Shown here: positions 13,814 through 43,763 of the stretch, piece by piece | Layout of the letters: each line of letters opens with the position of its first letter | Position numbering within the stretch: the first letter of the stretch is position 1 | DNA from: Georgenia satyanarayanai | GTDB taxonomy: Bacteria > Actinomycetota > Actinomycetes > Actinomycetales > Actinomycetaceae | DNA: 64,000 nucleotides | Direction of reading: 5' to 3' | NCBI RefSeq assembly: GCF_009193135.1 | Contig: NZ_VUKC01000014.1 | Coordinates: forward strand, 1-64,000 | Position numbers and translations under genes: made by a program | The notes under the pieces: generated by a model | Databases searched by the model: none | What the model saw: only the letters and a program-made list of their open reading frames with translations | What the model was told of the DNA's origin: nothing

Positions 13814-13841
13814 GGCAGGCCCGTGCTCCAGTCGGTGCGGG
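13800..13841. terminator. Bidirectional terminator between convergent genes
   Basis: A perfect 12-bp inverted repeat (CCGCACCGACTG at 13801-13812 with CAGTCGGTGCGG at 13829-13840), extended by one more pair, overlaps the exporter stop codon. The loop is 16 bases. It lies between two convergent genes and can serve both. Confidence 0.75.
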
Positions 13842-13847
13842 GCCCGG

Positions 13848-19565: not shown

Positions 19566-19609
19566 GGCACCCGGGTCCGGACCGGCTGGACCGGGAGGTG
19601 AGGGACGCC

Positions 19610-25735: not shown

Positions 25736-28700
25736 TCACCGCGCCACCGGCACGCCCCGCCGGGCGCGGAGCTCGGCCACGGCCTCCGTCAGCCGGGCGG
25801 CGCGTGCGTCGAAGGTGTGCTCGCCACGGACCCGGACCCCGAGCTCCCGGCGCGCCTCGGCGCGTTCGGGCGTCTCGCTGAGCTGGCTGCGGATGGCGGT
25901 GGCGATGTCGCGCTCCCCGCCGTAGGTGAGCACGACGTCACCGAAGACGTCCGCGATCTCCGGGAGGTCGTCGCTGACGACGCGGGCGTCGCAGGCGGCG
26001 AGGTCGAAGAGCCGGTTGGAGAGCAGCCCCATGTCCCGCATGTCGTCCCAGTGGTCGTTGAGGACGACACCGGCGGCGCTGTAGACCGCGGGCAGCTCGG
26101 CGTTGGGGATGTAGGTGCCCTTCCAGGCGCCGTCGGGCAGCTGGCCGTCCCAGCGCAACCCGTAGACCGCCGGCACGATGCCGGCCTGGAGAGCGGCCGC
26201 CACGCTGGGGCGCACCCCGCGGGCGTTGGCGACGACGAGGACGTCGTGCGCACGGTGGCGGTCGGGCTCCACCGGGTGGAAGCGGTGCTGGTCGGTGCAC
26301 TGGAGGAGCGGCTCGACCGGGCGGCCCAGACGCCGCCCCATGGTGTGGCACCAGCGCGGGGACGCGCCGAAGGCGAGGTCGTAGCCGGCCAGCTCGCCGG
26401 CGCTCACCCGGTCGGGGTGGCTGATCACCCAGGCGACGTTGGTGTGCCCCGGGTTGGCCTCGTAGGTCGCGACACCGCGCAGCTGGAGCACGACGTCGTC
26501 GAGGTGGGACGTCGGCCGGTACCAGGAGTCCTTGCAGTCGATGGACACCTCGTGCCCGAGGCGCTCGAGGGAGTCGCGCAGCGACTCGGCGAAGTGCCAG
26601 TCGCCCCAGTTCGTGCGGCGCTCGACGGTGGGCGCCCCGATCTTGATCGCCCAGCGCAGCGGGCGCTCGGGACGGTCGTGGACGAGGAGCGGCCGGGGGG
26701 CGACCTGGGTGTTGCGGGCCCGGTCGAAGCCGACGAGCCGGTAGCCGGGCAGTGTCGTCGCCGGGTCCGAGGCGGGCCGGCCGGCCTCGAGGAGCAGCTC
26801 GCGCTCGCGGCGCTGGTTGTCCCGGGCACGTCGGAGCCCGGTCTCCGTCGTGGAGTCGGTCACCGGTCTGAGCCACGCGACGCGGCTCGAGGGCACGCAC
26901 ACCGCCGACCTGCCGGTCACCTGCCGCACCCGCGCGGAGAGCTCCCCGCCGTAGATGTCGTCGCGCACCAGCGGGTCGAAGCCGCCGGCCGCTGCGACGT
27001 CGGCCCCGCGGACGGCGACGGCGGCGGCGCTCACCGCGGCGACCTCACGCTCACCGCGCAGCTCCGGGGCGTCGCCCCCGAAGCCGGACCAGGGCAGGTA
27101 CCAGTCGCCGCTGGCGAGGTACTCCACCCCGGCCGACCAGACCTCACCGCCGGGGGAGAGGACGAGGGGCTGGGCGACGGCGTGGACCCGCAGCGCCTCG
27201 CGGAGCGGGGCGTCCCACCCCGGCTCGGTCCACAGGCCGTGGTGGAGGAAGACGACGTCCCGCCCCCGTGTGCGCCCGAGCCCGGCGTTCCGAGCGAGCT
27301 CCATCGGCAGCGGCTGGGAGAGGCGCACGAGCACCACCTCGGGGTGCGCGCCGAGCCGGGCGTGCAGCTCGACGAAGACGCCGGGCTCGGACGTCGCGTC
27401 GACGACGACGACCTCGACGGGGCCGTCGGCCGTGGCGAGGAGGCGCCGGACCGAGGTGAGGACCGTGTCGGCCGTGGCGGTCCGGGGCACGGTGACGACG
27501 ACGCTGAGCAGCTCCTCGTCGCGGGCAGGGGCGTCCCGGACCACCGCGTCGAGGTCGACGAGCGTCTTGTGCAGCACGGCGTACCGGTAGGCCATGGGCT
27601 CGTGGGTGGTGATCCGCTCGCCCTCCTCGGTCCACACGTCGTACTCGGTGGCGATGATGGGGAGGAAGGTGAAGTCGGTGCGCTCGGCGAGCCGGACGAG
27701 CAGGTCCCAGTCGACGTAGCGACGCAGCGACTCGTCGAAGCCGCCGACCTCGTCGATGAGGGAGCGCTCGTGGACGAACACGATCCCGTCGATGTAGTTG
27801 CGCTCGCGCAGGTGCGCCCGGTTGAAGGGCAGGCCGCGGTACAGACGCCGGCCCTCCCCGCCCTGCTCGACGAGAGCCGTCACGGCGTAGGCGACGCGGT
27901 CCCCGGAGTGGACGAGGTGACGCACCATGAGCTCGAGGAAGTCGGGCACCCAGGTGTTGTCGGAGCCGAGGTAGGCGACGTACCGGCCGGTCGCACGCTG
28001 CACACCGGAGTTGTGGGCCGCCGCGACCCCCCGGTTGACGTCGTGGCGGACGACCTCGATCCGCTCGTCCGAGGCGTACCGTTCGAGCAGGGCCGGGGTG
28101 TCGTCCTCGCTCCCGTCGTCGACGACGACGAGCTGCCAGTGCGGGTAGGTCTGCGCGAGCACCGAGTCGATCGTCGCCCCGAGCAGGTGGGCGCGGTCCT
28201 TGGTCGGCACGACGACGCTGACCGTCGGCGGGTCGGGCGGCAGCGGCCGCGAGCGCAGCTCGGCCTTGACCCGGGCCTCCAGCTCGGTGTCGAAGGACGC
28301 CCGGTCCCGCTCGACGTGCTCGAAGCCCCGGGTGTCGAGGAGGACCTGCGCGGCGGCCCGGGCGGCGGCGAGAAGCTCGGCCGGCTGGTCCCAGGGCTCG
28401 CCGGTGGCACCGTCGGAGGAGCCGAGGGCCCGCCCCGCGGACAGGAAGTGGGCCAGGGGGCCGCCGGGTGCGGTGCCCGACTCGGGGTGGCCGGCCAGGT
28501 AGGACGCCGCGTCGAAGAGCGGGTGGGGGGAGCGTCCCGCCTCGGCTCCGAGGTCGAGGTAGTGGAGGAAGGGCCGGCGCGCGACCTGGACCTGCTCCTT
28601 GGCGGTGCGGGCGGGCTGGGAGGCGTAGTGCCCGGGGACGAACGCCGGGTGCGGGGAGAGCCCGCGAGCGTCGCCGTGGTCGACGAGGTGGGCCGCGGGA

Positions 28701-29041
28701 TCGGCAGCCGCGTCGGTCCTCGCGGCCGGCTCGAGCTGCGCGAGGTACCAGTCGGGGTCGAACAGCCCGCTCTCCTGCACCAGCCGCACGGCGCGTGCCC
28801 GGGAGGGCGGGATCCAGCCGGGCCGAGGGCGCCGGGCGGACTCGCGCAGCTCACGGTTCTCCCGGCGCAGCTCCCCGCGAGCGTCCTGCAGCCGGCGCAC
28901 GTCCTCGAGCAGCGCACGACGCTGCTCGCGCAGCTCGTCGGCCTTCTGCTCGCGCTGCTTCGCCGCGCGCCGTAGCTCGTGGATCTGCGCGTCACGCTGC
29001 GCGATCGGCGGGAGCCGTCGCATCCATGCCTTCACCGCCAT
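25736..29041 (-). CDS. Giant multidomain glycosyltransferase (GT2 pair plus GT4-like C-terminus)
   Basis: Protein of 1101 residues. Residues 1-25 hold RRLPPIAQRDAQIHELRR, followed by a coiled coil to residue 70. Residues 90-215 contain SPHP repeats (FDPDWYL, GLSPHPAF, GRSPHPLF). A first GT2 domain begins near 274 (VSVVVPTKDRAHLLGATI) with YLGSDNTW in place of the usual DSD near residue 359. A second GT2-like domain spans about 500-720. A conserved segment near 790 (LRWAIKIGAP, WGDWHFAESL) leads to a GT4-like domain with LLSNRLFDLAACDARVV. It is a paralogue of the gene at 34372-37518. It may synthesise a repeat unit of the cell-surface polymer. Confidence 0.88.
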   Translation of the reverse strand: MAVKAWMRRLPPIAQRDAQIHELRRAAKQREQKADELREQRRALLEDVRRLQDARGELRRENRELRESARRPRPGWIPPSRARAVRLVQESGLFDPDWYLAQLEPAARTDAAADPAAHLVDHGDARGLSPHPAFVPGHYASQPARTAKEQVQVARRPFLHYLDLGAEAGRSPHPLFDAASYLAGHPESGTAPGGPLAHFLSAGRALGSSDGATGEPWDQPAELLAAARAAAQVLLDTRGFEHVERDRASFDTELEARVKAELRSRPLPPDPPTVSVVVPTKDRAHLLGATIDSVLAQTYPHWQLVVVDDGSEDDTPALLERYASDERIEVVRHDVNRGVAAAHNSGVQRATGRYVAYLGSDNTWVPDFLELMVRHLVHSGDRVAYAVTALVEQGGEGRRLYRGLPFNRAHLRERNYIDGIVFVHERSLIDEVGGFDESLRRYVDWDLLVRLAERTDFTFLPIIATEYDVWTEEGERITTHEPMAYRYAVLHKTLVDLDAVVRDAPARDEELLSVVVTVPRTATADTVLTSVRRLLATADGPVEVVVVDATSEPGVFVELHARLGAHPEVVLVRLSQPLPMELARNAGLGRTRGRDVVFLHHGLWTEPGWDAPLREALRVHAVAQPLVLSPGGEVWSAGVEYLASGDWYLPWSGFGGDAPELRGEREVAAVSAAAVAVRGADVAAAGGFDPLVRDDIYGGELSARVRQVTGRSAVCVPSSRVAWLRPVTDSTTETGLRRARDNQRRERELLLEAGRPASDPATTLPGYRLVGFDRARNTQVAPRPLLVHDRPERPLRWAIKIGAPTVERRTNWGDWHFAESLRDSLERLGHEVSIDCKDSWYRPTSHLDDVVLQLRGVATYEANPGHTNVAWVISHPDRVSAGELAGYDLAFGASPRWCHTMGRRLGRPVEPLLQCTDQHRFHPVEPDRHRAHDVLVVANARGVRPSVAAALQAGIVPAVYGLRWDGQLPDGAWKGTYIPNAELPAVYSAAGVVLNDHWDDMRDMGLLSNRLFDLAACDARVVSDDLPEIADVFGDVVLTYGGERDIATAIRSQLSETPERAEARRELGVRVRGEHTFDARAARLTEAVAELRARRGVPVAR

Positions 29042-29078
29042 GCCATCCCATCCCTCCGCGGACCGGTCACCCGCGATG

Positions 29079-30155
29079 CTACGTGGGTCGGCCGACCCGC
29101 TGGGCCCAGGCAGGGGCGACCGGTGCCACGGTCGTGGGCGGCATGGGGGCCGTCACGGTGGGGTCGTGGTGTCCGCGGAGGACGGAGAAGGGGCGCCCCT
29201 CGGAGAGGTCGAGCTGGAGCCGGGCCTCGGCCCGGTCGTAACGGGTGCCGAGCTCCTCGTCCCACCGCCGGGTGAAGGTCTGCGAGTCGCCCGGGAGCGG
29301 GGTGAGCTCACCGAGCACGACGCCCTCGCCGGCGGCGTACAGGTCGACCCGGACGACGGGCAGGGGAACGGCGAGGGAGAGGGCGGAGGCGATCTCCGTC
29401 ATGAGCGGGAGCTGGGCGGGCACCCCGAGGGAGGTGTCGTACGTCCGTCCCTGCTGCACCGTGCCGAGGTCCGTGCCGTCGGGCCCGACCATGCGCACGC
29501 GCGCCACCGACGTGTCGGCGTGGACGGGCATCCGGCGGAGGAGGACGAGCGCGACCTCGCCGTAGAAGGCATAGATCTTGACGTCGTCGGGCAGCTGCTC
29601 CTCGGAACCGGGGAGGAGGGTCTCGGCGAAGAACGGCGCCCGGGCACCACGGGCGGCGGTGTAGTGCGCCACGATCCCCTCGCGGGTGTACTGCGCGCTC
29701 CCGTCGAGGAGCTCGAACCCGGTGCCGGTGCGCCGCAGGGGCAGCACACCGCGTCCGGTGGAGCCGCCGTTGCTCTTGAGGACGAACTGCGCGGGCAGGG
29801 AGTCCCAGTCGATGTCCGCGGGCGTGGGCCACACGCCGAGCACCTGCGGGGTGCTCACCCCGTGGCTGCGCGCCACCTCGTAGTTGTGCAGCTTGAGGAA
29901 GAGGTTGTGGCGCGCGTGGGTGTGCGCCCGGTCGTCCCGTGCGACGACGTCCTGGACCCGCTGCTGCTCGAGGATCCGCGTGTGCCACGACGCGACGCGA
30001 GGGCGGTACCGGGGTGGGGGTGGGGGCGGGGGTGGCGGGGGCGGGGGGACGGCGAGGCGACGCTCGAGCTTGTCCACCTGCCGGCGCAGCTGCCTGATCT
30101 GCGCATCGCGCCTCGCCACGGGCGGGAAGCGGCGAAGCAGGTGACGAAGGGTCAT
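29079..30155 (-). CDS. TupA-like ATP-grasp protein with poly-proline linker
   Basis: Protein of 358 residues. Residues 8-25 carry the motif RRFPPVARRDAQIRQLRR shared with both giant glycosyltransferases, then a short coil. Residues 37-48 are twelve consecutive prolines. The remaining part is an ATP-grasp fold of the TupA type: HARHNLFLKLHNYEVARSHG, FVLKSNGGSTGRG as nucleotide loop, FFAETLLPG, VKIYAFYGEVAL and VRVDLYAAGEGVVLGELTP with metal-binding acids. TupA was first linked to teichuronopeptide synthesis, so an amino acid or peptide may be joined to a uronic-acid polymer. The start faces the small coiled-coil gene across a 123-base gap with a palindrome. Confidence 0.83.
   Translation of the reverse strand: MTLRHLLRRFPPVARRDAQIRQLRRQVDKLERRLAVPPPPPPPPPPPPRYRPRVASWHTRILEQQRVQDVVARDDRAHTHARHNLFLKLHNYEVARSHGVSTPQVLGVWPTPADIDWDSLPAQFVLKSNGGSTGRGVLPLRRTGTGFELLDGSAQYTREGIVAHYTAARGARAPFFAETLLPGSEEQLPDDVKIYAFYGEVALVLLRRMPVHADTSVARVRMVGPDGTDLGTVQQGRTYDTSLGVPAQLPLMTEIASALSLAVPLPVVRVDLYAAGEGVVLGELTPLPGDSQTFTRRWDEELGTRYDRAEARLQLDLSEGRPFSVLRGHHDPTVTAPMPPTTVAPVAPAWAQRVGRPT
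30012..30047 (-). repeat. Twelve-proline codon run
   Basis: Thirty-six bases encode Pro37-Pro48 of the ATP-grasp protein using CCC, CCG and CCA codons. It separates the N-terminal motif from the catalytic domain. A run of this length stalls ribosomes and would need EF-P. Confidence 0.95.
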
Positions 30156-30187
30156 GAGGGGATTGTGTCAGGTGTCGGCGTGGCGAT

Positions 30188-30203
30188 CGGTGACGCGTCA
30201 CCG
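30188..30203. promoter_or_regulatory. Perfect 16-bp palindrome, possible operator
   Basis: CGGTGACGCGTCACCG reads the same on both strands. It lies in the gap between two divergent genes, 33 bases from the ATP-grasp start and 76 bases from the coiled-coil start. Both could be controlled from it by one dimeric regulator. No regulator gene is next to it. Confidence 0.55.
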
Positions 30204-30246
30204 GTCCGGGCGCCGGGCGACCTGACGACCGACCGGGGCCGCTGTG

Positions 30247-30252
30247 TAACCT
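30247..30252 (+). promoter_or_regulatory. Putative -10 element of the coiled-coil gene
   Basis: TAACCT lies 27 bases before GTG 30279; CTGACG at 30222-30227 could be the -35 with a long 19-base spacer. A GAGAGGGG ribosome site follows. Confidence 0.45.
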
Positions 30253-30278
30253 GAGGCGGTCGTCGAGAGGGGTTCTTC

Positions 30279-30674
30279 GTGAAAAAGCTCGCCGTTGCCG
30301 CACTGGTGATCCTGGTGCTCGTCATCGGTGCCGCGGTCGCCTACGACCGAGGGGCCGGCGTGCTGACGATCGGCCTTCTCGGCCTCGTCGCAGGAGCGGG
30401 GACGCTCGCCGCGATCGACGCCAACCAGAAGGTCCGGCGCCAGCAGCGTCACTTCAGCCGGTGGCAGAAGGCCTCGGAGCGGCGGATGAGCGTCGTCGAG
30501 GAGGAGCTCCTGCGGCGCGGCGCGCACGTGGAGGCGGCCACCCAGGACGACGTGCTCGGCACCGTCAGGCTCATGCAGGAGCAGTACCTCGGGCGGCTGG
30601 ACCGGGCGCGGGGCGAGCTCGAGCAGGCCGCTGCGGCACTCCGCGGGGCCGCCGGCACCACGCGCCCGGAGTGA
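30279..30674 (+). CDS. Small membrane protein with cytoplasmic coiled coil
   Basis: Protein of 131 residues. Two hydrophobic segments at about residues 4-21 and 27-48 form a membrane hairpin, then comes a long charged helix (NQKVRRQQRHFSRWQKASER) and a second helix rich in Leu, Glu and Arg ending near residue 125. No enzymatic motif is present. GTG 30279 has GAGAGGGG upstream. It is followed after 4 bases by a GT2 gene. A scaffold role for neighbouring transferases, which also carry N-terminal coils, is an inference. Confidence 0.78.
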   Translation: MKKLAVAALVILVLVIGAAVAYDRGAGVLTIGLLGLVAGAGTLAAIDANQKVRRQQRHFSRWQKASERRMSVVEEELLRRGAHVEAATQDDVLGTVRLMQEQYLGRLDRARGELEQAAAALRGAAGTTRPE

Positions 30675-30678
30675 GACC

Positions 30679-32886
30679 GTGAGCCGTGACGTCGTCGGCG
30701 CGTACGCGACGGCCGCCGCCGCGAGCCCGAGGACCCTGGCCCGGGCACTGGTCCGGACGAAGTCGCGCGCCGGGCGCGACGTCCTCGCCGCGCTCGCCGC
30801 GGACCGTCGGCTGACCTCGACCCAGCTCGAGGACCTGGGCCGCCGGTACCTCGAGGGGACGCCTCCGGGGCTCCCGCTCGACCCGCGGCGCGTGCTGGAC
30901 CTCGCCCGTGTCGTTGCGCTCCAGACCGACGAGCCCGACGACCGGTCCGCGGCGCTCGGCCTCCTGTCGTGGGTGAGCGACGAGCACGCTCACCTCCTCG
31001 GGGAGCGGGAGGCGACCCTGCTGCTCCAGCTCGCCGTCAAGGAGCGCCGCTTCCCGCGGGCCGACGCGGTCCTCGCGAACGTGCCCGTGGCCACCGGCGC
31101 CGGTCGCCTGGCCGCGGCCGACCTCGCCAACCCGTGGCTGCGTCCCGGTGCCGAGGAGGCTTCCTGGCTCGCGGCGCTCAACGCCGCCCTCTTCGGCCCC
31201 GACGCCGTCCAGGCCGGTCTCCTGCCCGACGGCGACACGCCCTTCGACCGGCTGACGACGACGAGCGCGCAGCGGGTCGCGCACGAGAAGAAGATCACCG
31301 TCGTCATCAGCTGCTTCAACCCCGACCGCCACCTCCTCACCGCGGTGCGTTCCGTCCTCGAGCAGACGTGGCAGAACATCGAGCTCTTCGTCGTCGACGA
31401 CGCCTCGCCGTCGCCCGCCCCGGGCGTCCTCGAGGAGGTCGAGCGCATGGACGCGCGCGTGACGGTCGTCCGCAAGGCCGTCAACGGGGGCACCTACCGC
31501 GCGCGCAACACCGCCCTGCGCCTGGCGACGGGCGACTTCTTCACCTGCCTCGACTCCGACGACTGGGCCCACCCCCAGCGGCTCGAGCTCGGGGTGCGGC
31601 CGATGCTCGAGGACGAGAGCCTCGTCGCGACGCGGAGCCTGGGCGTGCGGGCCACCGAGCAGATGGAGCTGGGCCGGGTCGGCTACGGCGGGCGTTTCAA
31701 GGCCGCCTCCTCGCTCATGATCAGGGTCTTCCCGGTCGTCAACCGGGTCGGGTTCTTCGACCCGGTGCGCAAGGCCGCCGACAACGAGTACGCGCTGCGC
31801 GTCGAGTCGGCCTTCGACGGCAAGGTCGTCGACGTCCCGACCCACGCGCTCACCGTGCTGCTCGCCGATGCCGGCTCGCTCTCCGCGTCCGACTACTCCT
31901 CGGGGTGGCGCCACCCCGCGCGCTCGGAGTACCTCGAGGCGTACTCCGAGTGGCACCGCCAGGTGGGCCGGCGGGAGGCCGCGAGGTTCCTCGCGCCGCA
32001 CGGACCGCGGCCCTTCCCGGCGCCGCGCCGCTGGGAGCGCCACCCGCAGGACGGGGAGGCGGGGCGGGAGCTGGACGTCGTCGTCCTGGCCGACTGGCGG
32101 GAGGACTGGCTGCAGCCCGGCACCCTCGACCGGCTGCACGCCTACGTGGCCGGCGGTCGGCGGGTGGGCCTCGTCCACCACGAGTCGCTGGTCGAGCCGG
32201 TGGCCGAGGAGCGCCCCCTGGCGCGACCGGTCCGTGAGCTCGTGCAGCGGGGCGTGGTCGAGCGTGTCTACCTCGACGACGCCCGGCACGCGGTCCTCAC
32301 CGTCGTCGCCGACCCCCGCGTCCTCCAGTTCCCCCCGCTCCTCTCGCCGCGTCTCACGAGCGGCCGCGTCGTCGTCGTCGAGCAGGCCGCGGACCACTAC
32401 ACGACGGCCGACGTCGAGCGCCATGTGCGCGAGCTCCTCGGCGCCGACCCCGAGTGGGGTGCGTGGCCGGCGGCCCCGGACCCGGCGGAGCTCGTCGCGG
32501 GCGTCCCGGCTGCCGCGGGGACCGTCGACCTCGGCGACACCCCCGAGGCGACGGGCGACCTCACCGTCGGCTCCTGGCTGCTGCGTGAGCCCGCCGACGC
32601 GGAGCGGGGCGCCCGCCTCAGCGTCGTCCGCCGCGTCGGCGTGCCGGGGGGTGGCCCCGAGACGCGCGAGCTGAGCGACGCGTGGGCAGCCGGGGCGGCT
32701 CCCTGGGAGGAGACCGCCACCGACTGGCTCGACCGCTCCCCGGGTGCCGTCGCCGTCGCGGTGCGGACGGCGAGCGCGCTGCGTGTCGTCGTCGCGGCCG
32801 GGCTCCGCGCGGAGGCGACGGGGGCCCACGGGATCCGGATCGTGCCTGACGGCGCCGGCTCCCGCCTGCTCGTGCTGCACGGCTGA
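30679..32886 (+). CDS. Glycosyltransferase family 2 with helical N-terminal extension
   Basis: Protein of 735 residues. Residues 1-200 are mainly helical and leucine-rich, with no family I recognise. A GT2 domain starts near residue 211 (ITVVISCFNPDRHLLTAVRS) with VVDDAS and the DxD motif as CLDSDDW near residue 293. The end of the catalytic domain includes KAADNEYALRVESAF. The last 280 residues form one or more unassigned domains starting LDVVVLADWREDWLQPG. The gene lies four bases after the membrane coiled-coil gene and is probably co-translated. It is not a paralogue of the giant transferases. Confidence 0.87.
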   Translation: MSRDVVGAYATAAAASPRTLARALVRTKSRAGRDVLAALAADRRLTSTQLEDLGRRYLEGTPPGLPLDPRRVLDLARVVALQTDEPDDRSAALGLLSWVSDEHAHLLGEREATLLLQLAVKERRFPRADAVLANVPVATGAGRLAAADLANPWLRPGAEEASWLAALNAALFGPDAVQAGLLPDGDTPFDRLTTTSAQRVAHEKKITVVISCFNPDRHLLTAVRSVLEQTWQNIELFVVDDASPSPAPGVLEEVERMDARVTVVRKAVNGGTYRARNTALRLATGDFFTCLDSDDWAHPQRLELGVRPMLEDESLVATRSLGVRATEQMELGRVGYGGRFKAASSLMIRVFPVVNRVGFFDPVRKAADNEYALRVESAFDGKVVDVPTHALTVLLADAGSLSASDYSSGWRHPARSEYLEAYSEWHRQVGRREAARFLAPHGPRPFPAPRRWERHPQDGEAGRELDVVVLADWREDWLQPGTLDRLHAYVAGGRRVGLVHHESLVEPVAEERPLARPVRELVQRGVVERVYLDDARHAVLTVVADPRVLQFPPLLSPRLTSGRVVVVEQAADHYTTADVERHVRELLGADPEWGAWPAAPDPAELVAGVPAAAGTVDLGDTPEATGDLTVGSWLLREPADAERGARLSVVRRVGVPGGGPETRELSDAWAAGAAPWEETATDWLDRSPGAVAVAVRTASALRVVVAAGLRAEATGAHGIRIVPDGAGSRLLVLHG

Positions 32887-32902
32887 CGAGCGGCCGGGGG
32901 TG

Positions 32903-34375
32903 TCAGCGGCGGGCGGTGAGCTTGCGCCTGACCCGGCCGAGCAGGCGGCGGAGGCGGGCGCGCGCGGGGACCGGCCTGGTCGCCGGCGAGGCCTTCAGTG
33001 TCGGGGCCGGCTTCTCGCCGAGCGCGATCATCCCCTGCGCGGTCACGTGGAAGACGGCCGCACGCACCCCCAGCGACTCCGGGCTCACGGCCTCGGGCTC
33101 CGGCACGGTGCCCTCACCGGTGGCGTGGGCGCGCCGGAGGACCGAGCGCGTGGTCTCCACGGTGAGGTGGCGGCCGGGAGCGACCTCGGCGCGGACACCG
33201 CCGCCCTCGGTGATCTTCTCCAGCGCCCGGCCCACCGTCTCCCGGTCCAGCACGAGGCCGGCCGTCACGCGGGCGGTCACGGGAGAGGGGTACCCGGACC
33301 CCGGGGCCGCCTCGGTGAAGGAGACCCGGGCGTCGGCGGCGAAGTAGTCGTGGAGCCAGCGGGGCAGCGTGGCGGAGCCGGGCAGCGTGACCGTGAGGTC
33401 GGTGTGCCCGGAGGCGAGCAGGCTGTCGGTGGTGACCTGGACGTCCTCGGGTGCCGCGCCGTCGGTCTCGACGACGACGTGCACGCCCGGCACCGTCCAC
33501 TGCCGACCGGTGTTCTGCGGGCGGAACAGCGGGATGGGGAGGAGGTTCGCCGCCAGGCCGGTGCGCTCACGCTTGATCTCGTCCCCGCGGGAGACGAAGT
33601 TGCGGGCGCCCTGGTGGTAGGCCGTCGTCTTCCAGTCCGGGATGATGACGCCGCCGGAGGTGAGGGCGCGGTACCCGAACTCCGTGTCCACGATCCCCCG
33701 CAGACCGAGCGGGGCGAACCCCCCGGTGCGGAGGTAGAGGTCTCGCCGCACGGAGACATCGGCTCCGACGACCGCGACGAACGAGTCCGCGACGTCCTGC
33801 GTGAGGTACCGCCGCTCCTTGACGAACGCCTCCTGCCAGCCGTGGCGCTTGCGCTCCCGTCCCTCGAGCAGCTCACCGAGCGCGTCCCCGGACACGGCCC
33901 GCGCGACGTCGTCGGGGGTGATGCCGTCGAAGTCGACGAACCACTTGCGGCCCAGGACGACGGCGTGCGGCGTCACGTGGTGCCAGCGGGCGTGCGACTC
34001 GAGGTGCGCGGCGCTCACGACCATGTCGGCGTCGAGGAAGACGATGACGTCCGCGTCGGTGCTGCGCGCCCCGCGTTCCCTGGCGCGTCCGGAGCCGTGC
34101 TCCTGGGCCTCCTCCACCCGCAGCACGCGGGTGCCGGCCGGAGCGAGCCCGTGGACGGTCAGCGGGAGGGGGGAGGCGTCGTCGACGACGACGACCTCGG
34201 TGAGCTCCGCGGGGTAGGTCTGCCGGCCGAGCGCGGCGAGTGTCCGGTCGAGGTCCTCCTGGCAGTCGCGGGCCGGGATGACGACACAGACCCGCAGGGT
34301 CGGCTCGAGCTCGCCGAGGGCGGGCACGGGCAGGTCCCCCCACTGCTGACCGGTCACGGTGTGCTGGGTCGTCAT
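32903..34375 (-). CDS. Glycosyltransferase family 2
   Basis: Protein of 490 residues. A GT2 domain begins near residue 28 (LRVCVVIPARDCQEDLDRTL), with VVVVDDAS and the DxD motif VIVFLDADMV near residue 115, and continues with GADVSVRRDLYLRTGGF and DTEFGYRALTSGG, where the ED-type acid is Glu of DTEF. The C-terminal 200 residues form a second domain without known motif and end in a very basic tail (RLRRLLGRVRRKLTARR) suited to membrane binding. ATG 34375 overlaps the stop of the giant transferase upstream, so the two are coupled. Confidence 0.88.
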   Translation of the reverse strand: MTTQHTVTGQQWGDLPVPALGELEPTLRVCVVIPARDCQEDLDRTLAALGRQTYPAELTEVVVVDDASPLPLTVHGLAPAGTRVLRVEEAQEHGSGRARERGARSTDADVIVFLDADMVVSAAHLESHARWHHVTPHAVVLGRKWFVDFDGITPDDVARAVSGDALGELLEGRERKRHGWQEAFVKERRYLTQDVADSFVAVVGADVSVRRDLYLRTGGFAPLGLRGIVDTEFGYRALTSGGVIIPDWKTTAYHQGARNFVSRGDEIKRERTGLAANLLPIPLFRPQNTGRQWTVPGVHVVVETDGAAPEDVQVTTDSLLASGHTDLTVTLPGSATLPRWLHDYFAADARVSFTEAAPGSGYPSPVTARVTAGLVLDRETVGRALEKITEGGGVRAEVAPGRHLTVETTRSVLRRAHATGEGTVPEPEAVSPESLGVRAAVFHVTAQGMIALGEKPAPTLKASPATRPVPARARLRRLLGRVRRKLTARR

Positions 34376-37300
34376 GCGCGCTCCTTCCGCAGCTCGGCCA
34401 CCTGCTCGGCGATCTGCCGGGCGCGGGCGTCGAACGTGTGCTCCCGCCGGACGAGCTCGCCGAGCGCGCGGCGTGCCTGCTGCCGCTCGGGGCTGTCGGC
34501 GAGGACGTCGCGGACGAGGTCGGGCAGCTCGGCGGGGTCCCGGTAGGTGGGGACCGCGTCGCCGAGCACCTCGGGGATCTCGGGCAGGTGGTCGCTGACG
34601 AACCGGGCCTCGCAGGCGGCGAGGTCGAACAGGCGGTTGGACAGCAGCCCGTCGCGGCGCATGTCCTCCCAGTGGTCGTTGAGGACGACCCCGGCGGCCC
34701 GGTACACGCCCGGGAGCTCGTCGTTGGGCACGTTCTCGCCCCGCCACGCGCCGGCCGGGAGCAGCCCCTTCCAGCGGTAGCCGTAGACGGCGGGCACGAT
34801 CCCGCCCTCGAGCGCGGCGGCCACGGCGGGGCGGGGCCCGCGGGCGTTGGCGACGGCGAGCACCTCGTGGACGCGCTCGGTGTCGGGCGGGCCGGGCGCG
34901 AAGCGGCGGTGGTCGGTGCACTGGAGGAGCGGCACGGCGGGCTGGTCGAGCTTGCGGCTCACCCGCTCGCACCAGCGGGGGGAGGCGCCGAAGACGGCGT
35001 CGAACTCGCGGAGCTCGGAGACGGTGACCTCGTCGGGGTGGCTGATGACCCAGATGAGGTTCACGTGCGCCGGGTTGACCCGGTAGGGGCCGCGGCCGCG
35101 CAGGACGAGCGTGACGTCGTCGAGGTGGGCGGTGTCGCGGTACCAGGCGTCGCGGCAGTCGATCGTCACCTCGTGGCCCAGGCGCTCCAGGGAGTCGCGC
35201 AGCGCGACGGCGAAGTGCCAGTCACCCCAGCGCGCGCGCCGCGGCACGTCCGGCGCACCGATCTTGATGGCCCAGCGCAGCGGGCGCTCGGGACGGTCGT
35301 GGACGAGGAGGGCGCGCAGCCGCTCGTCGGCGTCGCGGGCGAAGCCGGCGACGGCGTAACCGGCGAGATCCGCCGGCTCGGCACCGTCCCACCCCTGCGC
35401 GAGGCGGTGCTCGTTGTCGGCGGCCGAGACGAACCGGGAGGCGCGGGTGCGGGGCAGCTCGTCGCTCGTGAGGGCGACGACACTGGTGCCGGCGAGCCCG
35501 CCGGGCCGCCCGGTCCGGCGCGCGAGCCGCACGGACAGGTCCGGGCCGACGTGGTCCTGGACGAAGAGCGGGTCGAAGCCCTCGACGGCGAGGAAGTCGG
35601 CGGCCCGCACCGCGACGGCGAGCGGGGTGACGGCGGGGACCTCGCGGGTGCGGCGCAGCTCGGGGGCGTCCCCGGCCAGGCCGGCGAGGAGCGGTGCGGC
35701 GTTGCCGTCCCGTGTGCGCATCGCGCCGGCCGACCACACGGTGCCCTCGCGGGCGAGCACGAGCGGCTGGACGGCGCTGTGCCGCTCGAGCGCGTGGACG
35801 AGCGGGCCGTCCCAGCCGGGCTCCGGCCACAGCGCCTCGGGCAGGAAGACGAGCACGCCGCCGCGGGCGGTGCAGGCTCCGACGTTGCGGGCCACCTCCA
35901 TCGGCAGCTCCTGGCTCAGCCGCACCACCCGGGCCCGCGGCTCGGACCACAGCGCGAGCTGGAGCTGGGTGGCGTCCCCGGCCTCGAGGCGGCTGTCGAC
36001 GACGACGACCTCGACCGCCCGCTCCGCGGTGCGCAGCAGCCGGCGCACCGTCGTCAGGACCGTCGCGAGCTCCTCGTTGGCGACGACGACGACCGAGGTG
36101 AGGCCCGGGTCGCGCTCCGCGGCGCGCGCGGCGTCCCAGTCGACGAGGCTGCGCTGGCGGATGAGGTAGCGGTAGCTGGCGAGCTCGTCGGTGGTGATGC
36201 GGTCGGTGCCCGTCTCCCACAGGTCGTAGCGCGTGGCGATGAAGGGTGCGAAGCCGAAGTCGGTGACCCGGGCGAGGCGGATGAGGTAGTCCCAGTCGAC
36301 GTTTCGGCGCAGCGACTCGTCGAAGACGCCGACCTCCTCGAGCAGGCTGCGCTCGTGGAGGATGACGATGCAGTCGATGTAGTTGCGCTCGAGCAGTGCC
36401 TCCCGGGAGTAGGGCATCCCGCGGAAGCGACGCCGCTCCTTGCCGCCCTGCTCCTCGAGCCCCGACATCGCGTAGGCGGCACGCAGCCCCTCACGCTGGA
36501 CGAAGCGCACCATGAGCTCGAGGAAGTCCGGTTCCCAGGTGTTGTCGGAGTCGAGGAAGGCGACGTACTCCCCGGTCGCGGCGGCCAGGCCGGTGTTCCG
36601 TGCCGCCGCCACCCCGCGGTTCGTCTCGTGGGTGACGAGGCGGACCCTCGGGTCGCGCAGGAAGGGGACGAGGGCCTCGGGCGTGCCGTCCCGGCTGCCG
36701 TCGTCGACGACGACGAGCTCCCACCGCGCGTAGGTCTGGTCGAGGACCGACTGGAGCGCCGTCGGCAGGACCGTGGCGCGGTCCTTGCTCGGCACGATGA
36801 CGCTGACCAGCGGCTCCTCGCCGAGCGGCGTGGCGCGCAGCCCCGCCTTGAAGGCCGCCTCGGCCTCGGTGTCGAAGGCGCCGGTCTCGCGCCGCAGGTG
36901 CTCGTACCCGCGGGTGGCGAGGATGCTGCGCGAGGCCTCCCGCGCCGCCTCGAGGAAGGCCGCGGGCGAGGTGAGCCCGGGGAGGTCCCGGACCGCGACG
37001 GGAGGCGCCTCGTGCCCGGCGAGGAAGTGGCCGAGCGGGCCGCCCGGGTGACGCACGGCCTCGGCGTGCGCCTTGGCGTAGTGGTCGGCCCGGAAGCCGG
37101 GGTGCGGTGAGACCCGCGCCCGGGCGCCGACGCGGAGGTAGTGGACGAGTGCCGGCCCGCGGAGCTTGTCCGGGGTCTGCGGCTGCTCGACGTACCAGTC
37201 GGCGTCGAAGCAGGGGTGGGGGGAACGGCCCGCGCGGTGCCCCTCGGTGAGGTAGTGCTCGAGGGCGTCGGCCGCCCCGGGCACCTGCTCGCGGTACCAG

Positions 37301-37518
37301 GCCTCGTCGAAGAGACCGCTGGCGCGCACGAGCTCGGCCTGGGCGGTGGTGCTGCCGTAGTCCAGCCCGTCCGGCTCCGGGTTGTCCGCCCGGGGGACGC
37401 GGCCCCCCAGCTTGGCGACCTCCTGCTGCAGCGTGCGGTTGCGGCGCTTGAGCTCCTTGAGCTGGGCGTCGCGCCGGGCGATCGGTGGGATCCGGCGAAC
37501 CAGGCTCGTGAGCCGCAC
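34372..37518 (-). CDS. Giant multidomain glycosyltransferase, paralogue of 25736-29041
   Basis: Protein of 1048 residues with the same architecture as the gene at 25736-29041: RRIPPIARRDAQLKELKR at residues 8-25 with a short coil, then SPHP repeats (GRSPHPCFD, VSPHPGF). A first GT2 domain follows (VSVIVPSKDRATVLPTAL) with intact FLDSDNTW near residue 322, then a second GT2-like domain, the LRWAIKIGAP segment and a GT4-like end with LLSNRLFDLAACEARFV. GTG 37518 has GGAGGT six bases upstream. The downstream GT2 overlaps its stop by 4 bases. The two giants probably arose by duplication and now act on related acceptors. Confidence 0.9.
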   Translation of the reverse strand: MRLTSLVRRIPPIARRDAQLKELKRRNRTLQQEVAKLGGRVPRADNPEPDGLDYGSTTAQAELVRASGLFDEAWYREQVPGAADALEHYLTEGHRAGRSPHPCFDADWYVEQPQTPDKLRGPALVHYLRVGARARVSPHPGFRADHYAKAHAEAVRHPGGPLGHFLAGHEAPPVAVRDLPGLTSPAAFLEAAREASRSILATRGYEHLRRETGAFDTEAEAAFKAGLRATPLGEEPLVSVIVPSKDRATVLPTALQSVLDQTYARWELVVVDDGSRDGTPEALVPFLRDPRVRLVTHETNRGVAAARNTGLAAATGEYVAFLDSDNTWEPDFLELMVRFVQREGLRAAYAMSGLEEQGGKERRRFRGMPYSREALLERNYIDCIVILHERSLLEEVGVFDESLRRNVDWDYLIRLARVTDFGFAPFIATRYDLWETGTDRITTDELASYRYLIRQRSLVDWDAARAAERDPGLTSVVVVANEELATVLTTVRRLLRTAERAVEVVVVDSRLEAGDATQLQLALWSEPRARVVRLSQELPMEVARNVGACTARGGVLVFLPEALWPEPGWDGPLVHALERHSAVQPLVLAREGTVWSAGAMRTRDGNAAPLLAGLAGDAPELRRTREVPAVTPLAVAVRAADFLAVEGFDPLFVQDHVGPDLSVRLARRTGRPGGLAGTSVVALTSDELPRTRASRFVSAADNEHRLAQGWDGAEPADLAGYAVAGFARDADERLRALLVHDRPERPLRWAIKIGAPDVPRRARWGDWHFAVALRDSLERLGHEVTIDCRDAWYRDTAHLDDVTLVLRGRGPYRVNPAHVNLIWVISHPDEVTVSELREFDAVFGASPRWCERVSRKLDQPAVPLLQCTDHRRFAPGPPDTERVHEVLAVANARGPRPAVAAALEGGIVPAVYGYRWKGLLPAGAWRGENVPNDELPGVYRAAGVVLNDHWEDMRRDGLLSNRLFDLAACEARFVSDHLPEIPEVLGDAVPTYRDPAELPDLVRDVLADSPERQQARRALGELVRREHTFDARARQIAEQVAELRKERA

Positions 37519-37623
37519 GTGGGGACCTCCGTAGACGACGGGTGATGACGGGCGGGACGCCTGGCACGACTCTACCGGGCGCCCAGATCCCGGCCCGGCG
37601 CGGCCCGGGCGGAGGCCGGAGGT

Positions 37624-37629
37624 TATGCT
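37624..37629 (+). promoter_or_regulatory. -10 element of the taurine/nitrate-type ABC operon
   Basis: TATGCT, preceded by T, is a good -10. The expected start near 37636 leaves a leader of about 55 bases to the ATC at 37692. No -35 is convincing. Confidence 0.5.
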
Positions 37630-37691
37630 TCCGACCCGTACGAGGACGCGCGGGTCGCTGCGGCGGCACGCTCCCGGGGAAGGACACCGCG

Positions 37692-38603
37692 ATCAGCGCC
37701 ACCGGCGAGTCACGGGCAGACGACGCCACGACCGACGCACCCGAGCTCGCCGAGGACGCGCGTTCTGGGCAGGTCGTCGAGCGGCACCGCCGGGCGGTGC
37801 GGACCCGCACGCGCCGTCGTCTCGTGCTGCAGCTCGGCTCCCTCGTCGTCGTGCTCGCCGCGTGGTGGGCGGTGACGGCGGCGGGCGTCGTGCGCCCGCT
37901 GTACCTGCCGGGGCCCGGCGCCGTGTGGGACGCGTTCGTGCGGGCGAACTCCTGCTACGAGGCGGGCACGCGCGTGCTGTGCGGCGAGCAGGGCTACTTC
38001 ATGTGGGAGCACCTGCTCGCGTCCTTCCGCCGGATCGGGGTGGGTGTGGGCGCCGCCATCGTCCTGGGCCCCCTGCTCGGCTTCCTCATGGGAGCGAGCC
38101 GGTGGTTCAACGCGGTGAGCGAGCCCTACCTCAACTTCCTGCGCGCGCTCCCTCCGCTGGGCTACATCGGTCTGCTCATCGTGTGGTTCGGCATCGGTGA
38201 CCTCTCGAAGTACTGGCTGCTGTTCCTCGCCGCGTTCCCGCCGATCGCGATCGCCACGATCAACGGGATGCGCGGCATCCAGACCGACCGCGTCCACGCC
38301 GCGGAGTCGATGGGCGCCAGCCGGTGGCAGGTGGTCACGCAGGTCATGCTCCCCTCGACCCTGCCCGAGATCCTCTCGGGCATCCGGATCGCCGTGGGCT
38401 TCGCCTGGACCACCGTCGTGGCAGCCGAGCTCAACAACGGCATCCCCGGCATCGGTGGTCTCGCCTACATCGCGGGCACCCAGCTGCAGACGGCGCTGAC
38501 GATCGCCTGCATCATCGTCATCGGACTGTGCGCGGTGGCGCTCGACACCGCGTTGAAGTACCTGACCCGAGCGCTCGTCCCCTGGTACGGAAAGGCGGCC
38601 TGA
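37692..38603 (+). CDS. ABC importer permease (SsuC/TauC/NrtB family), possible ATC start
   Basis: Membrane permease with about six hydrophobic segments and the BPD_transp_1 loop AAESMGASRWQVVTQVMLP. The start is uncertain. No ATG, GTG or TTG lies in frame between the -10 element and GTG 37797. The ribosome site GGGGAAGGA ends seven bases before an in-frame ATC at 37692, which would give ISATGESRADD as N-terminus; GTG 37797 would remove the acidic N-terminal tail. ATG 37542 opens the frame but lies upstream of the -10. The binding-protein gene follows after one base. Substrate class: taurine, sulfonate, nitrate or a pyrimidine precursor. Confidence 0.88.
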   Translation: MSATGESRADDATTDAPELAEDARSGQVVERHRRAVRTRTRRRLVLQLGSLVVVLAAWWAVTAAGVVRPLYLPGPGAVWDAFVRANSCYEAGTRVLCGEQGYFMWEHLLASFRRIGVGVGAAIVLGPLLGFLMGASRWFNAVSEPYLNFLRALPPLGYIGLLIVWFGIGDLSKYWLLFLAAFPPIAIATINGMRGIQTDRVHAAESMGASRWQVVTQVMLPSTLPEILSGIRIAVGFAWTTVVAAELNNGIPGIGGLAYIAGTQLQTALTIACIIVIGLCAVALDTALKYLTRALVPWYGKAA

Positions 38604-38604
38604 C

Positions 38605-40571: not shown

Positions 40572-40625
40572 ACGGTGCGGGCGGCAGGTTCGCTCCGGAA
40601 CGTGCGAGACGACTTGGAGTTGCAC

Positions 40626-41888
40626 ATGACCGTGGACCTTGCCGTTGTGGGGCTGGGGTACGTGGGGTTGCCGCTGGTGTTCGAGGCGGTCCACGCCGGG
40701 ATGTCCGTTCGCGGGTACGACGTGAACCAGGGCGTGGTCGACGGCCTCAACGGCGGCGTCTCGCACATCGACGACCTGGCCGACGAGCAGATCGCCGACC
40801 TCGTCTCGCGCGGCTTCGCGGCCACGACCGACGCCGCGGTGCTCGCCGAGGCCAAGCACGTCGTCATCTGCGTGCCCACCCCGCTGGCCGAGGACGGCGG
40901 CCCTGACCTGGGCCCGGTGCGTGCCGCGGTGGGCGACATCGCCCGGCACCTGCAGCCCGGCCAGGTCATCGTGCTGGAGTCCACGACGTACCCGGGGACC
41001 ACCGAGGAGATCGTCCAGCCGATGCTCGAGGCCGGTGGCCTCAAGGCCGGCAGCGACTTCCACCTCGCGTTCTCCCCCGAGCGCATCGACCCGGGCAACG
41101 AGAAGTTCGGCGCGAAGAACACCCCGAAGGTCGTCGGTGGGGTGAGCCCGGAGTCCACCGAGGCCGCGGCCGCGTTCTACGGGCGTGTGGTGGACACGGT
41201 GGTGCGGACCAAGGGCACCCGCGAGGCCGAGATGGCCAAGCTGCTGGAGAACACCTACCGCCACATCAACATCGCGCTCGTCAACGAGATGGCCCGGTTC
41301 TGCCACGAGCTCGGCATCGACCTGTGGGACGTCATCGACGCCGCCAAGACCAAGCCCTTCGGCTTCCAGGCCTTCTACCCCGGCCCGGGCGTGGGTGGTC
41401 ACTGCATCCCGATCGACCCGAACTACCTGTCCTACAACGTGCGTGCGCGCCTGGGCTACCCGTTCCGCTTCGTCGAGCTCGCCCAGGAGATCAACGCGAC
41501 GATGCCGACGTACGTCGTCAAGCGCGCGCAGGACATCCTCAACGAGGACGGCAAGGCGATGAAGGGGGCGACCGTGCTGCTGCTCGGTGTCACCTACAAG
41601 CCGAACATCGCCGACCAGCGTGAGTCGCCGGCCGTGCCGGTGGCCAAGCACCTGCGGGAGAAGGGCGCCACGGTCGTCTTCCACGACCCGCACGTCCAGC
41701 AGTGGCGGTCCAACGGCTCGGTGACCGAGCGTGTCGCGGACCTGGACGAGGCGATCGCCAGCGCGGACCTCGTCATGCTCCTGCAGCACCACCGCGACTA
41801 CGACATCGAGGCCCTGGCCGGCGCGTCCAAGCGTTTCTTCGACACGCGCGGCGTCGCGGCCGAGAGCCCGACGGTCCAGCGTCTGTGA
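40626..41888 (+). CDS. UDP-N-acetyl-hexosamine 6-dehydrogenase (WbpA/WecC-like)
   Basis: NAD-dependent dehydrogenase of about 420 residues. Motifs run in order: GLGYVGLPLVFEA (NAD), VVICVPTPL, ESTTYPGTTEEIV, FSPERIDPGN, MAKLLENTYRHINIALVNE, GVGGHCIPIDP with catalytic Cys, and VTYKPNIADQRESP. The ESTTYPGTTEE and GNxxxxAKNTPKVVGG blocks are typical of UDP-GlcNAc or UDP-ManNAc dehydrogenases, so a HexNAc-uronate product is likely. ATG 40626 has GGAG seven bases upstream. The membrane-transport gene overlaps the stop, which places the enzyme in a polymer-export operon. Confidence 0.92.
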   Translation: MTVDLAVVGLGYVGLPLVFEAVHAGMSVRGYDVNQGVVDGLNGGVSHIDDLADEQIADLVSRGFAATTDAAVLAEAKHVVICVPTPLAEDGGPDLGPVRAAVGDIARHLQPGQVIVLESTTYPGTTEEIVQPMLEAGGLKAGSDFHLAFSPERIDPGNEKFGAKNTPKVVGGVSPESTEAAAAFYGRVVDTVVRTKGTREAEMAKLLENTYRHINIALVNEMARFCHELGIDLWDVIDAAKTKPFGFQAFYPGPGVGGHCIPIDPNYLSYNVRARLGYPFRFVELAQEINATMPTYVVKRAQDILNEDGKAMKGATVLLLGVTYKPNIADQRESPAVPVAKHLREKGATVVFHDPHVQQWRSNGSVTERVADLDEAIASADLVMLLQHHRDYDIEALAGASKRFFDTRGVAAESPTVQRL

Positions 41889-42778
41889 CCGCACCCGCAC
41901 CGGCGGCGGGGGGCGACGCCCCCCTGTCGTCGGACGCCGCGGCGCAGCTCGCCGCCAGGTACGGGCTCGAGCGGGGCGGCGTCCGGCCCCCGCTGGGGCG
42001 CTACCTCAAGGAGACGTGGGCGCAGCGCCGGTTCCTCTGGACGCTGTCCTCGGCGCAGTCCTACGCGCGCAACCAGGACAACTACCTGGGGCAGCTGTGG
42101 GGCGTCCTCAATCCGCTGCTGCTCGCCGCCGCGTACTTCCTCATCTTCGGTCAGCTGCTGGGCCTGGACGCCGGTGTGGACAACTACGTCGGGTTCCTCG
42201 TCATCGGCCTGCTCGTCTTCATGTACAGCGCCGGGACGATGACCTCGGCCTCCAAGGCCATCTCGGGGAACCTCAGCCTCGTCCGGTCCCTCCGGTTCCC
42301 GCGCGCCGTGCTCCCGCTGTCGGTGACGCTGACGGAGTTCATCGCCTTCCTGCCGTCCCTGGCCGTCATCCTCGTCCTCGTCCTCGTGACGGGGGAGCCG
42401 ATCACGGCCCACTGGCTGCTCTTCCCGGTGGCGATGGGGCTCATCGTCGCGATCAACGCGGGTATCGCGCTCATCGTGGCCCGGGTCGTCCACAGCTCCC
42501 GCGACCTGCGCAACCTCATCACGCTCGTGGTGCGGCTGCTGCGCTACGTCTCGGGCGTCTTCTTCAGCATCACCACCTTCGCCGGCCACGGGCTGGTGGG
42601 GACGGTCATGCTCTACCAGCCCTTCGCGGTCATCCTCGACATCGTCCGGCAGTCGCTGCTCTCGGACACCCCCTTCAACCCGACCACGTGGTACGTGGCC
42701 CTCGGGTGGGCGATCGTGCTGCCGGTCGTCGGGTTCATCTTCTTCTGGCGGGCAGAGGCGACCTATGGCCGTAACTGA
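41885..42778 (+). CDS. ABC-2 polysaccharide export permease (Wzm/TagG-like)
   Basis: Membrane protein of 297 residues. The N-terminal amphipathic part LWTLSSAQSYARNQDNYLGQ leads into LWGVLNPLLLAAAYFLIFG, the classic TagG/Wzm entry into six membrane segments. GTG 41885 overlaps the dehydrogenase stop, and the ATPase start lies 14 bases inside its end. With the ATPase it would move a lipid-linked polymer, such as a teichoic-type or teichuronic-type chain, across the membrane. Confidence 0.92.
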   Translation: MTAPAPAAGGDAPLSSDAAAQLAARYGLERGGVRPPLGRYLKETWAQRRFLWTLSSAQSYARNQDNYLGQLWGVLNPLLLAAAYFLIFGQLLGLDAGVDNYVGFLVIGLLVFMYSAGTMTSASKAISGNLSLVRSLRFPRAVLPLSVTLTEFIAFLPSLAVILVLVLVTGEPITAHWLLFPVAMGLIVAINAGIALIVARVVHSSRDLRNLITLVVRLLRYVSGVFFSITTFAGHGLVGTVMLYQPFAVILDIVRQSLLSDTPFNPTTWYVALGWAIVLPVVGFIFFWRAEATYGRN

Positions 42779-43763
42779 CGAGCGCAAGCCCTCACTCATC
42801 TCCTCGCACGTCGACGTCATCTACCGCGTCTACGGGGCGAAGAAGATGGGCACCGTGAGCGGGGCGCCGGGCAACGCGAGCCTCAAGCGGCTGCTCAAGG
42901 GGCGAGGGTCCATCGGTGGCGTGCGCGAGGTGCACGCGGTCAAGGACGTCTCCTTCGTCGCCTACCACGGCGAGTCGATCGGCATCGTCGGGCGCAACGG
43001 CTCGGGCAAGAGCACGTTGCTGCGCGCGCTCGCCGGCCTCATCCCGCCGACCAACGGCGAGATCTACACGGCGGGCACGCCCGCCCTGCTCGGTGTCAAC
43101 GCCGTGCTCATGCGCGAGCTCAGCGGCGAGCGCAACGTCATGATCGGCGGCCAGGCGCTCGGCCTCACCGCCAAGCAGGTGCGCGAGAAGATGGACGACA
43201 TCGTCTCCTTCGCCGGCGTCGAGGACTACATCGACCTGCCGATGAAGGCGTACTCCTCCGGCATGGCGGCGCGCCTGCGCTTCGCGATCTCCACCGCGGC
43301 CGTCCCGGACATCCTCATGATCGACGAGGCCCTCGCCACCGGCGACGCCGAGTTCCAGGCGCGGAGCCGCGAGCGGGTGGCGGAGATCCGCGAGGCGGCG
43401 GGAACGGTGTTCCTCGTCAGCCACAGCGACTCCACGGTCCGCGCCATGTGCGACCGCGCCCTGTGGCTCGACAAGGGGCGCCTCGTCATGGACGGCCCGG
43501 CGGGCGAGGTGTGCGACGCCTACCAGGCTGCCCGGTCCAAGGGGCCGAAGAAGGCGGCCGCCAAGAAGCCGGCCGCGAAGGCCCCGAAGGCGCCGGCTCC
43601 GGTGGCCGAGAAGCCCCCGGCGGCGAAGGCCCCCGCCGCGGCACCGTCCGCACCGGCCGAGCAGCCCGCGGCCGCCGCGCCGGCACCGGCCGACCCGCCG
43701 GCACCGCGCGAGACGCGCGCACCGGACACCGGGACGACGACGGCGGAGGACGCCCCGCGATGA
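42765..43763 (+). CDS. Polysaccharide export ATPase (Wzt/TagH-like) with Lys/Ala/Pro tail
   Basis: ATPase of 332 residues. The ABC domain has Walker A GRNGSGKST, signature YSSGMAARLRFAI and Walker B ILMIDEALATGD, the TagH/Wzt form. About 255 residues are the normal ATPase; the last 75 residues are an unusual low-complexity tail rich in Lys, Ala and Pro (KKAAAKKPAAKAPKAPAP) that resembles the tail of actinobacterial DNA-binding proteins. It replaces the C-terminal carbohydrate-binding domain of true Wzt. The GT4 gene starts inside the stop (ATGA). Confidence 0.92.
   Translation: MAVTDERKPSLISSHVDVIYRVYGAKKMGTVSGAPGNASLKRLLKGRGSIGGVREVHAVKDVSFVAYHGESIGIVGRNGSGKSTLLRALAGLIPPTNGEIYTAGTPALLGVNAVLMRELSGERNVMIGGQALGLTAKQVREKMDDIVSFAGVEDYIDLPMKAYSSGMAARLRFAISTAAVPDILMIDEALATGDAEFQARSRERVAEIREAAGTVFLVSHSDSTVRAMCDRALWLDKGRLVMDGPAGEVCDAYQAARSKGPKKAAAKKPAAKAPKAPAPVAEKPPAAKAPAAAPSAPAEQPAAAAPAPADPPAPRETRAPDTGTTTAEDAPR

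Follow-up and report, generated by a model that had tools for sequence, protein, structure and literature searches.

How the separate enzymes of Gram-positive glycans exported by ATP-binding cassette (ABC) transporters are held together is, to our knowledge, little known, and a polysaccharide locus of Georgenia satyanarayanai bears on the question. In the 64,000-nucleotide stretch analysed here (contig NZ_VUKC01000014.1, positions 1 to 64,000; the window), two giant glycosyltransferases (GT-A and GT-B; GT, glycosyltransferase) and a TupA-like ATP-grasp protein (P0005), all encoded in the same ABC-exporter polysaccharide locus, begin with one motif, RR-x-PP-[IV]-A-x-RDAQ-[IL]-xx-L-[RK]-R, and a small membrane protein (P0002) is encoded between them (coordinates in Table 1). 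We describe this motif as a homologous N-terminal element on two unrelated catalytic families and weigh what it may do.

Translation places the motif at residues 8-25 of each protein (RRLPPIAQRDAQIHELRR in GT-A, RRFPPVARRDAQIRQLRR in the TupA-like protein and RRIPPIARRDAQLKELKR in GT-B), with the pattern fitting all 18 residues in all three, and a six-frame scan found these three sites only in the window, bearing out the initial annotation of a single motif at equal residue positions in three proteins. Written as a degenerate DNA pattern, the motif gives 3 matches in the window versus 0 in 100 shuffles. A search of the whole genome (3.44 Mb) with the TupA-like protein returned, at E <= 1 and besides the protein itself, the N-termini of GT-B (E 5e-4) and GT-A (E 0.01) only. 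One possible start codon lies between the upstream stop and the motif in the TupA-like gene, and likewise in GT-B, so the N-terminal place of the motif is firm in both; GT-A has three nearby starts. The catalytic families carrying the motif are Glycos_transf_2 and Glyco_trans_1_2 in the GTs versus ATPgrasp_TupA in P0005 (Pfam). Because GT-A and GT-B are paralogues over their full length (52% identity), the catalytic domains, at first called unrelated in all three proteins, are unrelated between GT and TupA-like protein and make up two kinds, not three. P0005 belongs to PF14305 (64.3 bits versus a curated cut-off of 25), and its AlphaFold model (mean predicted local distance difference test score, pLDDT, 86.5) has the ATP-grasp ligase fold, and its top Foldseek matches include RimK, ArgX/LysX and Ddl ligases (E 1e-7 to 1e-5, template-modelling scores of about 0.4-0.5); it is probably an amide ligase, and has the motif, a helix and a linker at its N-terminus in addition to the family domain. 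The element is real, and searches of open-licence PubMed Central papers brought up no described motif or adaptor of such a kind.

Homology of the N-termini across the two families was examined with a profile made from 30 TupA N-termini only and run (HMMER) against 6346 open reading frames (ORFs) without TupA. This profile recovers 6/7 GT rows at E values of 5e-11 to 8e-9 (two of the seven rows are one G804 gene), with window GT-B at 2.6e-10. Window GT-A goes unreported with the HMMER composition correction and has an E value of 9.8e-8 with the correction off, at which setting the best unrelated ORF reaches 0.016. Two further matches, both in G818, are fragments read as broken TupA genes. In the opposite direction, the five best TupA matches of a GT N-terminal profile all lie in the clade that the window TupA forms with its sisters from genus g112. 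Codons at shared residues are identical in 6/14, 4/15 and 7/13 cases for the three gene pairs, versus 8.4, 8.0 and 8.0 expected from the codon usage of the three genes; as the likeness is not above expectation, the motif has been kept at the protein level without recent copying of DNA, and recent gene conversion between the motif genes is unlikely.

Among the genomes searched, the motif occurs on TupA-like ligases of three actinobacterial genera and on GTs of two. Within the genus of the window (g1; 6 genomes) the profile is strong in G000, G001, G002 (Oceanitalea stevensii, classed by NCBI in Georgenia) and G005 (an assembly 57% complete), and has no match at E <= 0.5 in G003 and G004; in this relatives search 40/59 genomes match at E <= 0.5, none outside the genus below 1e-3. 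A sample of the order (297 genomes) gave 17 matching genomes at E <= 0.01, strong (E < 1e-9) in 7 from genera g1, g54 and g112; the profile was built from TupA relatives, so these seven are partly recovered by construction, and the new information is that no genome beyond them is strong. The matches in the other 10 of the 17 are weak (E >= 6.6e-5), and the two inspected (G101 and G145) are not N-terminal. In family f17, 20/186 genomes match at E <= 0.001, all of them g112 and most outside the profile-building set, with 24 matches made up of 20 TupA (one assignment, in G801, judged by eye), 2 giant GTs (G796 and G804) and 2 fragments in G818. Genus g54 has matches in 4/8 genomes, each on TupA, and a class sample of 345 genomes has 6 matching genomes at E <= 0.005, with a strong match in the genome of the window only and a C-terminal match in G101. 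An exact-motif DNA scan of genome contigs found at least 118 stretches, and among the matches listed L097 (Oceanitalea stevensii) alone is a convincing N-terminus; the remaining stretches look like chance. A plasmid search with the TupA protein gave no match. The motif stands on GTs and on TupA in both g1 and g112 and recurs on both families in a second genus. It is not confined to one GT family, a finding that would have told against the initial annotation; the expectation that diverse polymer-synthesis enzymes would bear it was not sustained, as two families only carry it in the genomes searched. Two starts with the motif in G818 (L323) run into TupA pieces that lie in a different frame, which points to broken genes or sequencing errors.

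The AlphaFold model of the window TupA has a short helix (residues 3-7), a helix from the Pro-Pro (11-33; mean pLDDT 86-87 at residues 11-30), a low-confidence proline-rich linker and the ATP-grasp domain. The ten residues before the core carry a net charge of +2 to +5 in 37/37 rows, and R16 and D17 show no variation among 20 aligned TupA rows, both sets having been picked by the motif profile with near-copies included. Residue x of PPIAxRD, scored as W or not W, agrees in 21/23 within-genome pairs versus 11.5 expected (p 0.0005; labels permuted regardless of tree, relaxed rows included), and both disagreements involve one doubtful G801 row. The same residue follows genome, not family, in four sister contrasts selected after the fact (GT-A and the G796 GT; g1 and g112 TupA; two G228/G272 pairs).

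A tree of 47 TupA catalytic-domain rows (6/53 dropped: two long branches, two G807 rows and the two G818 fragments) has one clade of 43 rows (100/100), comprising 29 rows with the motif, 9 with a relaxed form and 5 with a two-helix membrane hairpin plus coil where the motif would stand. The five hairpin rows form one subclade (100/98) and were nested in a motif-bearing group in a quick tree (SH-aLRT 97). Two changes suffice on the careful tree when motif and relaxed form are taken as one state, and the simplest reading of these sequences is that the hairpin replaced the motif in one TupA subclade. In the GT tree the 7 motif rows are one clade (96/98; one row, from G001, was left untrimmed, the pattern having missed it), outside which lie a g1 GT (G005) that lacks the motif and, from G390, a GT that bears the hairpin and is very divergent; window GT-A is sister of the g112 GT of G796 (100/100). 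The hairpin-coil start of the TM-type TupA (g54/g112) recurs in G001 on a Methyltransf_24 protein next to TupA (E 8e-9), and in G002 (1e-11) and G005 (1e-4) on ORFs that neighbour P0002. Scores of this sort are inflated by membrane helices; most of the rows share an 'RQRA' ahead of the hairpin, which argues for true kinship. The window has 123 bp only between TupA and P0002, and a hairpin-coil gene of methyltransferase type is therefore absent at that place. These occurrences suggest that exchangeable N-terminal adaptors may be a habit of these loci.

We tentatively propose, with a confidence that falls just short of even, that the motif is an N-terminal adaptor on one TupA-like clade and one giant-GT clade that tethers the enzymes at the membrane or in one assembly. 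The adaptor would consist of a basic segment of about ten residues, most likely held on the surface of the membrane or by a partner bound to it, and of a helix that starts from the conserved proline(s), runs on as a coil and may pair with the same helix of sister enzymes, such that a polymerising GT and a uronic-acid-amidating ligase would work side by side on a lipid-linked chain. A uronic acid is plausible, as the window has two genes of the UDP-sugar dehydrogenase family. The hairpin plus coil in the place of the motif fits a tether and is the best hint of tethering at the membrane or in an assembly. The initial annotation of a docking or membrane-targeting tag is upheld in so far as the motif recurs on both families in a second genus and has a substitute that fits a tether, but not in its choice of P0002 as the dock.

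The nearest known arrangements are the recruitment of WbdA by WbdD and the GT-TupA fusion Cj1438. WbdA, the polymerase of Escherichia coli O9a, is recruited to the membrane by WbdD, whose coil contributes through its length to setting chain length (excerpts of PMC3482155 and PMC11231755). As those excerpts present the ABC-transporter-dependent O-antigens of E. coli O9a and Klebsiella pneumoniae O3, enzymes of an ABC-exported glycan are brought to the membrane via a membrane-associated region and a coiled coil, to which the present locus may be alike; there, however, one terminator bears the coil and recruits the polymerase, whereas here GT and TupA-like protein each bear the same N-terminal element. 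No terminator was identified in the window. Terminators of the WbdD kind are coiled-coil methyltransferases or kinases, and in G001 a hairpin-coil protein with a Methyltransf_24 domain lies beside TupA, where a role in recruitment would be conjectural. Cj1438 of Campylobacter jejuni is a GT2 fused to a TupA-like ATP-grasp amide ligase, the two acting successively on one capsule polymer, with the TupA-like domain amidating glucuronic acid and the GT requiring the amidated acceptor (excerpts of PMC11800379). Cj1438 thus has in one chain what the window encodes in separate genes with a common N-terminal element, where the ligase reaction is putative; the TupA-like gene ends 37 bp from the start of GT-A, both on the minus strand. 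Going by the WbdD-WbdA and Cj1438 precedents, the shared start may keep ligase and polymerase together at the membrane.

Several points weigh against an adaptor that tethers. The 19 kb stretch of G080 that carries a motif TupA has no polymer genes recognised by eye. The relaxed label in the TupA tree was assigned by eye, with at least two of the nine relaxed rows doubtful, and with the four states kept apart 6 changes are needed (8 in the 53-row quick tree). The hairpin is found in one clade only, and the branching order of its rows is not settled in the careful tree (an 86/84 fork that leaves a single long-branched motif row outside). Given how the 37-row and 20-row sets were picked, their conservation and charge involve some circularity, and the agreement at residue x was noticed post hoc. 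Membrane-targeting amphipathic helices of peripheral proteins are N-terminal, basic and short, as is the motif, but the motif is without a significant hydrophobic moment: across 37 rows, with ten residues taken from each, the first segment scores no higher than its shuffled versions (median p 0.30). An amphipathic membrane-targeting helix was considered and is unsupported, the moment not being high for the composition.

Other explanations fit part of the same evidence. The motif could be an address tag for one common partner per cell, and the variable residue x would then drift in step across the carriers of a genome through this common dependence. The motif, the hairpin-coil start (TupA, methyltransferase) and the hairpin protein paired with a GT (P0002, below) would belong to a set of interchangeable N-terminal adaptors by which an actinobacterial polysaccharide machine is assembled. 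We regard this extended proposal as doubtful, and read no more than a hint of a shared partner into the residue-x agreement. An oligomerisation helix only, forming homodimers or homotrimers with no targeting role, seems unlikely: the model has a coil-forming helix directly after the start of the motif, and some genomes have a single detected motif protein, yet the proline/RD start, not the coil, is the most conserved part, and a membrane hairpin takes the place of the motif in one subclade. We consider it quite unlikely that the motif is a structural N-terminal cap inherited by shared ancestry, an old fusion with no role in recruitment; motif plus relaxed form would fit one gain in TupA, and one origin is possible in the GTs, but two catalytic domains that are unrelated to each other both keep the sequence, and a proline-rich linker parts it from the domain in the window TupA. 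It is extremely improbable that arginine-rich coils are alike here by chance or composition, or that one gene recently received a copy of the 5' end of another. In favour of such an origin, the sequences are arginine-rich and the composition correction hides GT-A, but equal residue positions, the lack of any other match at E <= 1 in the genome of the window, the shuffled controls, recurrence across genera and the codon test speak against it, and it may be taken as already refuted as far as sequence can do so.

Docking of the motif onto the conserved C-terminal helix of P0002 is the remaining alternative, and we think it improbable. The small membrane protein between the enzymes is itself real: the model has helices at 2-23, 27-84 and 90-126, of which the first two lie in the hydrophobic N-terminal part and the second extends to residue 84 (predicted template-modelling score 0.31), and P0002 has no Pfam match. 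Its C-terminal helix is far better conserved than the remainder (D-[LV]-x-G-x-[VI]-[RQ]-[LV]-x-Q-x-Q-Y), and the two features share a locus in many genomes: in the order sample P0002 is strong in 7/297 genomes, 6 of them also motif genomes (6 shared of 7 strong each), both profiles having been built partly from those genomes, and P0002, GT and motif TupA follow in that order on one strand within about 3.5 kb in 10/27 g112 genomes with P0002. The constant neighbour of P0002 is, however, not a motif enzyme. In 35/35 copies examined (every strong g112 copy, and those of G000, G001, G002 twice, G065, G204, G228 and G272), a GT domain of the type encoded at 30679-32886 follows on the same strand, 10-571 bp away. 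Across the 31 genomes of g112, the genus sampled best, 17 have motif and P0002, 3 the motif only (G795, and G810 and G816 with assemblies 75% and 84% complete), 10 P0002 only and 1 neither, so the association initially predicted between motif and small coiled-coil gene is absent; three of the 10 P0002-only genomes have a relaxed-motif TupA and for the other seven the 10-11.5 kb fetched show no TupA. A motif TupA without P0002 occurs in G080, and P0002 without the motif in G065. Given the constant 30679-type neighbour and the separate occurrence, a common locus better explains the co-occurrence of motif and P0002, and P0002 docking was rejected as the main explanation on these two grounds. The likely partner of P0002, judged by adjacency, is the 30679-type GT, and the pair makes a second conserved unit that would otherwise be mistaken for the dock. 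The favoured adaptor is short, portable and N-terminal, has a natural alternative in the membrane hairpin, and gives a directly testable handle.

Three further observations concern P0002 and its neighbour. Across 11 aligned rows the C-terminal helix is nearly invariant (D-[LV]-x-G-x-[VI]-x-x-x-Q-x-Q-Y-x-[GA]-R-L-D-R). The 30679-type GT after the small membrane protein, a GT2, has an N-terminal domain of its own. G002 holds a second copy of P0002 that has diverged (L153 18244-18743, minus strand), again beside a 30679-type GT, and another such copy is at G005:C162.

Table 1. Positions of the motif, its carriers and other features (window coordinates unless a locus is named).
Feature	Position	Strand	Evidence
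Motif, residues 8-25 of GT-A	28967..29020	-	Translation, six-frame scan, cross-family profile
GT-A, 1101 aa, GT2 plus GT1-like domains	25736..29041	-	Pfam PF00535, PF13524; paralogue of GT-B
Motif, residues 8-25 of TupA-like protein	30081..30134	-	Translation; modelled helix 11-33 from Pro-Pro
TupA-like ATP-grasp protein (P0005), 358 aa, poly-proline linker after N-terminal helix	29079..30155	-	PF14305
Motif, residues 8-25 of GT-B	37444..37497	-	Translation, cross-family profile
GT-B, 1048 aa, paralogue of GT-A	34372..37518	-	Pfam, identity to GT-A
P0002, small membrane protein with hydrophobic hairpin and a C-terminal helix that is conserved; first suggested as dock, gene partner of P0008	30279..30674	+	Family alignment, model, gene neighbour
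GT2-type glycosyltransferase P0008, 4 bp after P0002	30679..32886	+	PF00535; adjacency
ABC-2 permease and ABC ATPase, presumed exporter	41702..43763	+	PF01061, PF00005
UDP-glucose/GDP-mannose dehydrogenase family protein	40575..41888	+	PF03721/00984/03720
Second UDP-glucose/GDP-mannose dehydrogenase family protein	19598-20905	+	Pfam
Hairpin-coil starts beyond TupA	L152:12730-13737; L153 about 13350-14350; L239	+ (L152, L153)	Similarity to TM-type TupA start

The locus is of the ABC-transporter-dependent kind, with both PF01061 and PF00005 present, and this transporter would export the polymer. Between GT-B and the sugar dehydrogenase, window 37542-40451 (+) encodes a permease, an NMT1-like binding protein and an ATP-binding ORF; these genes have close relatives in G002, G005 and G228, and the permease and binding protein were not found in the G001 stretches fetched. 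A small gene at window 50960-51289 (+), whose product is presumably WhiB-like, adjoins the locus and is about 70% identical in four g54 genomes.

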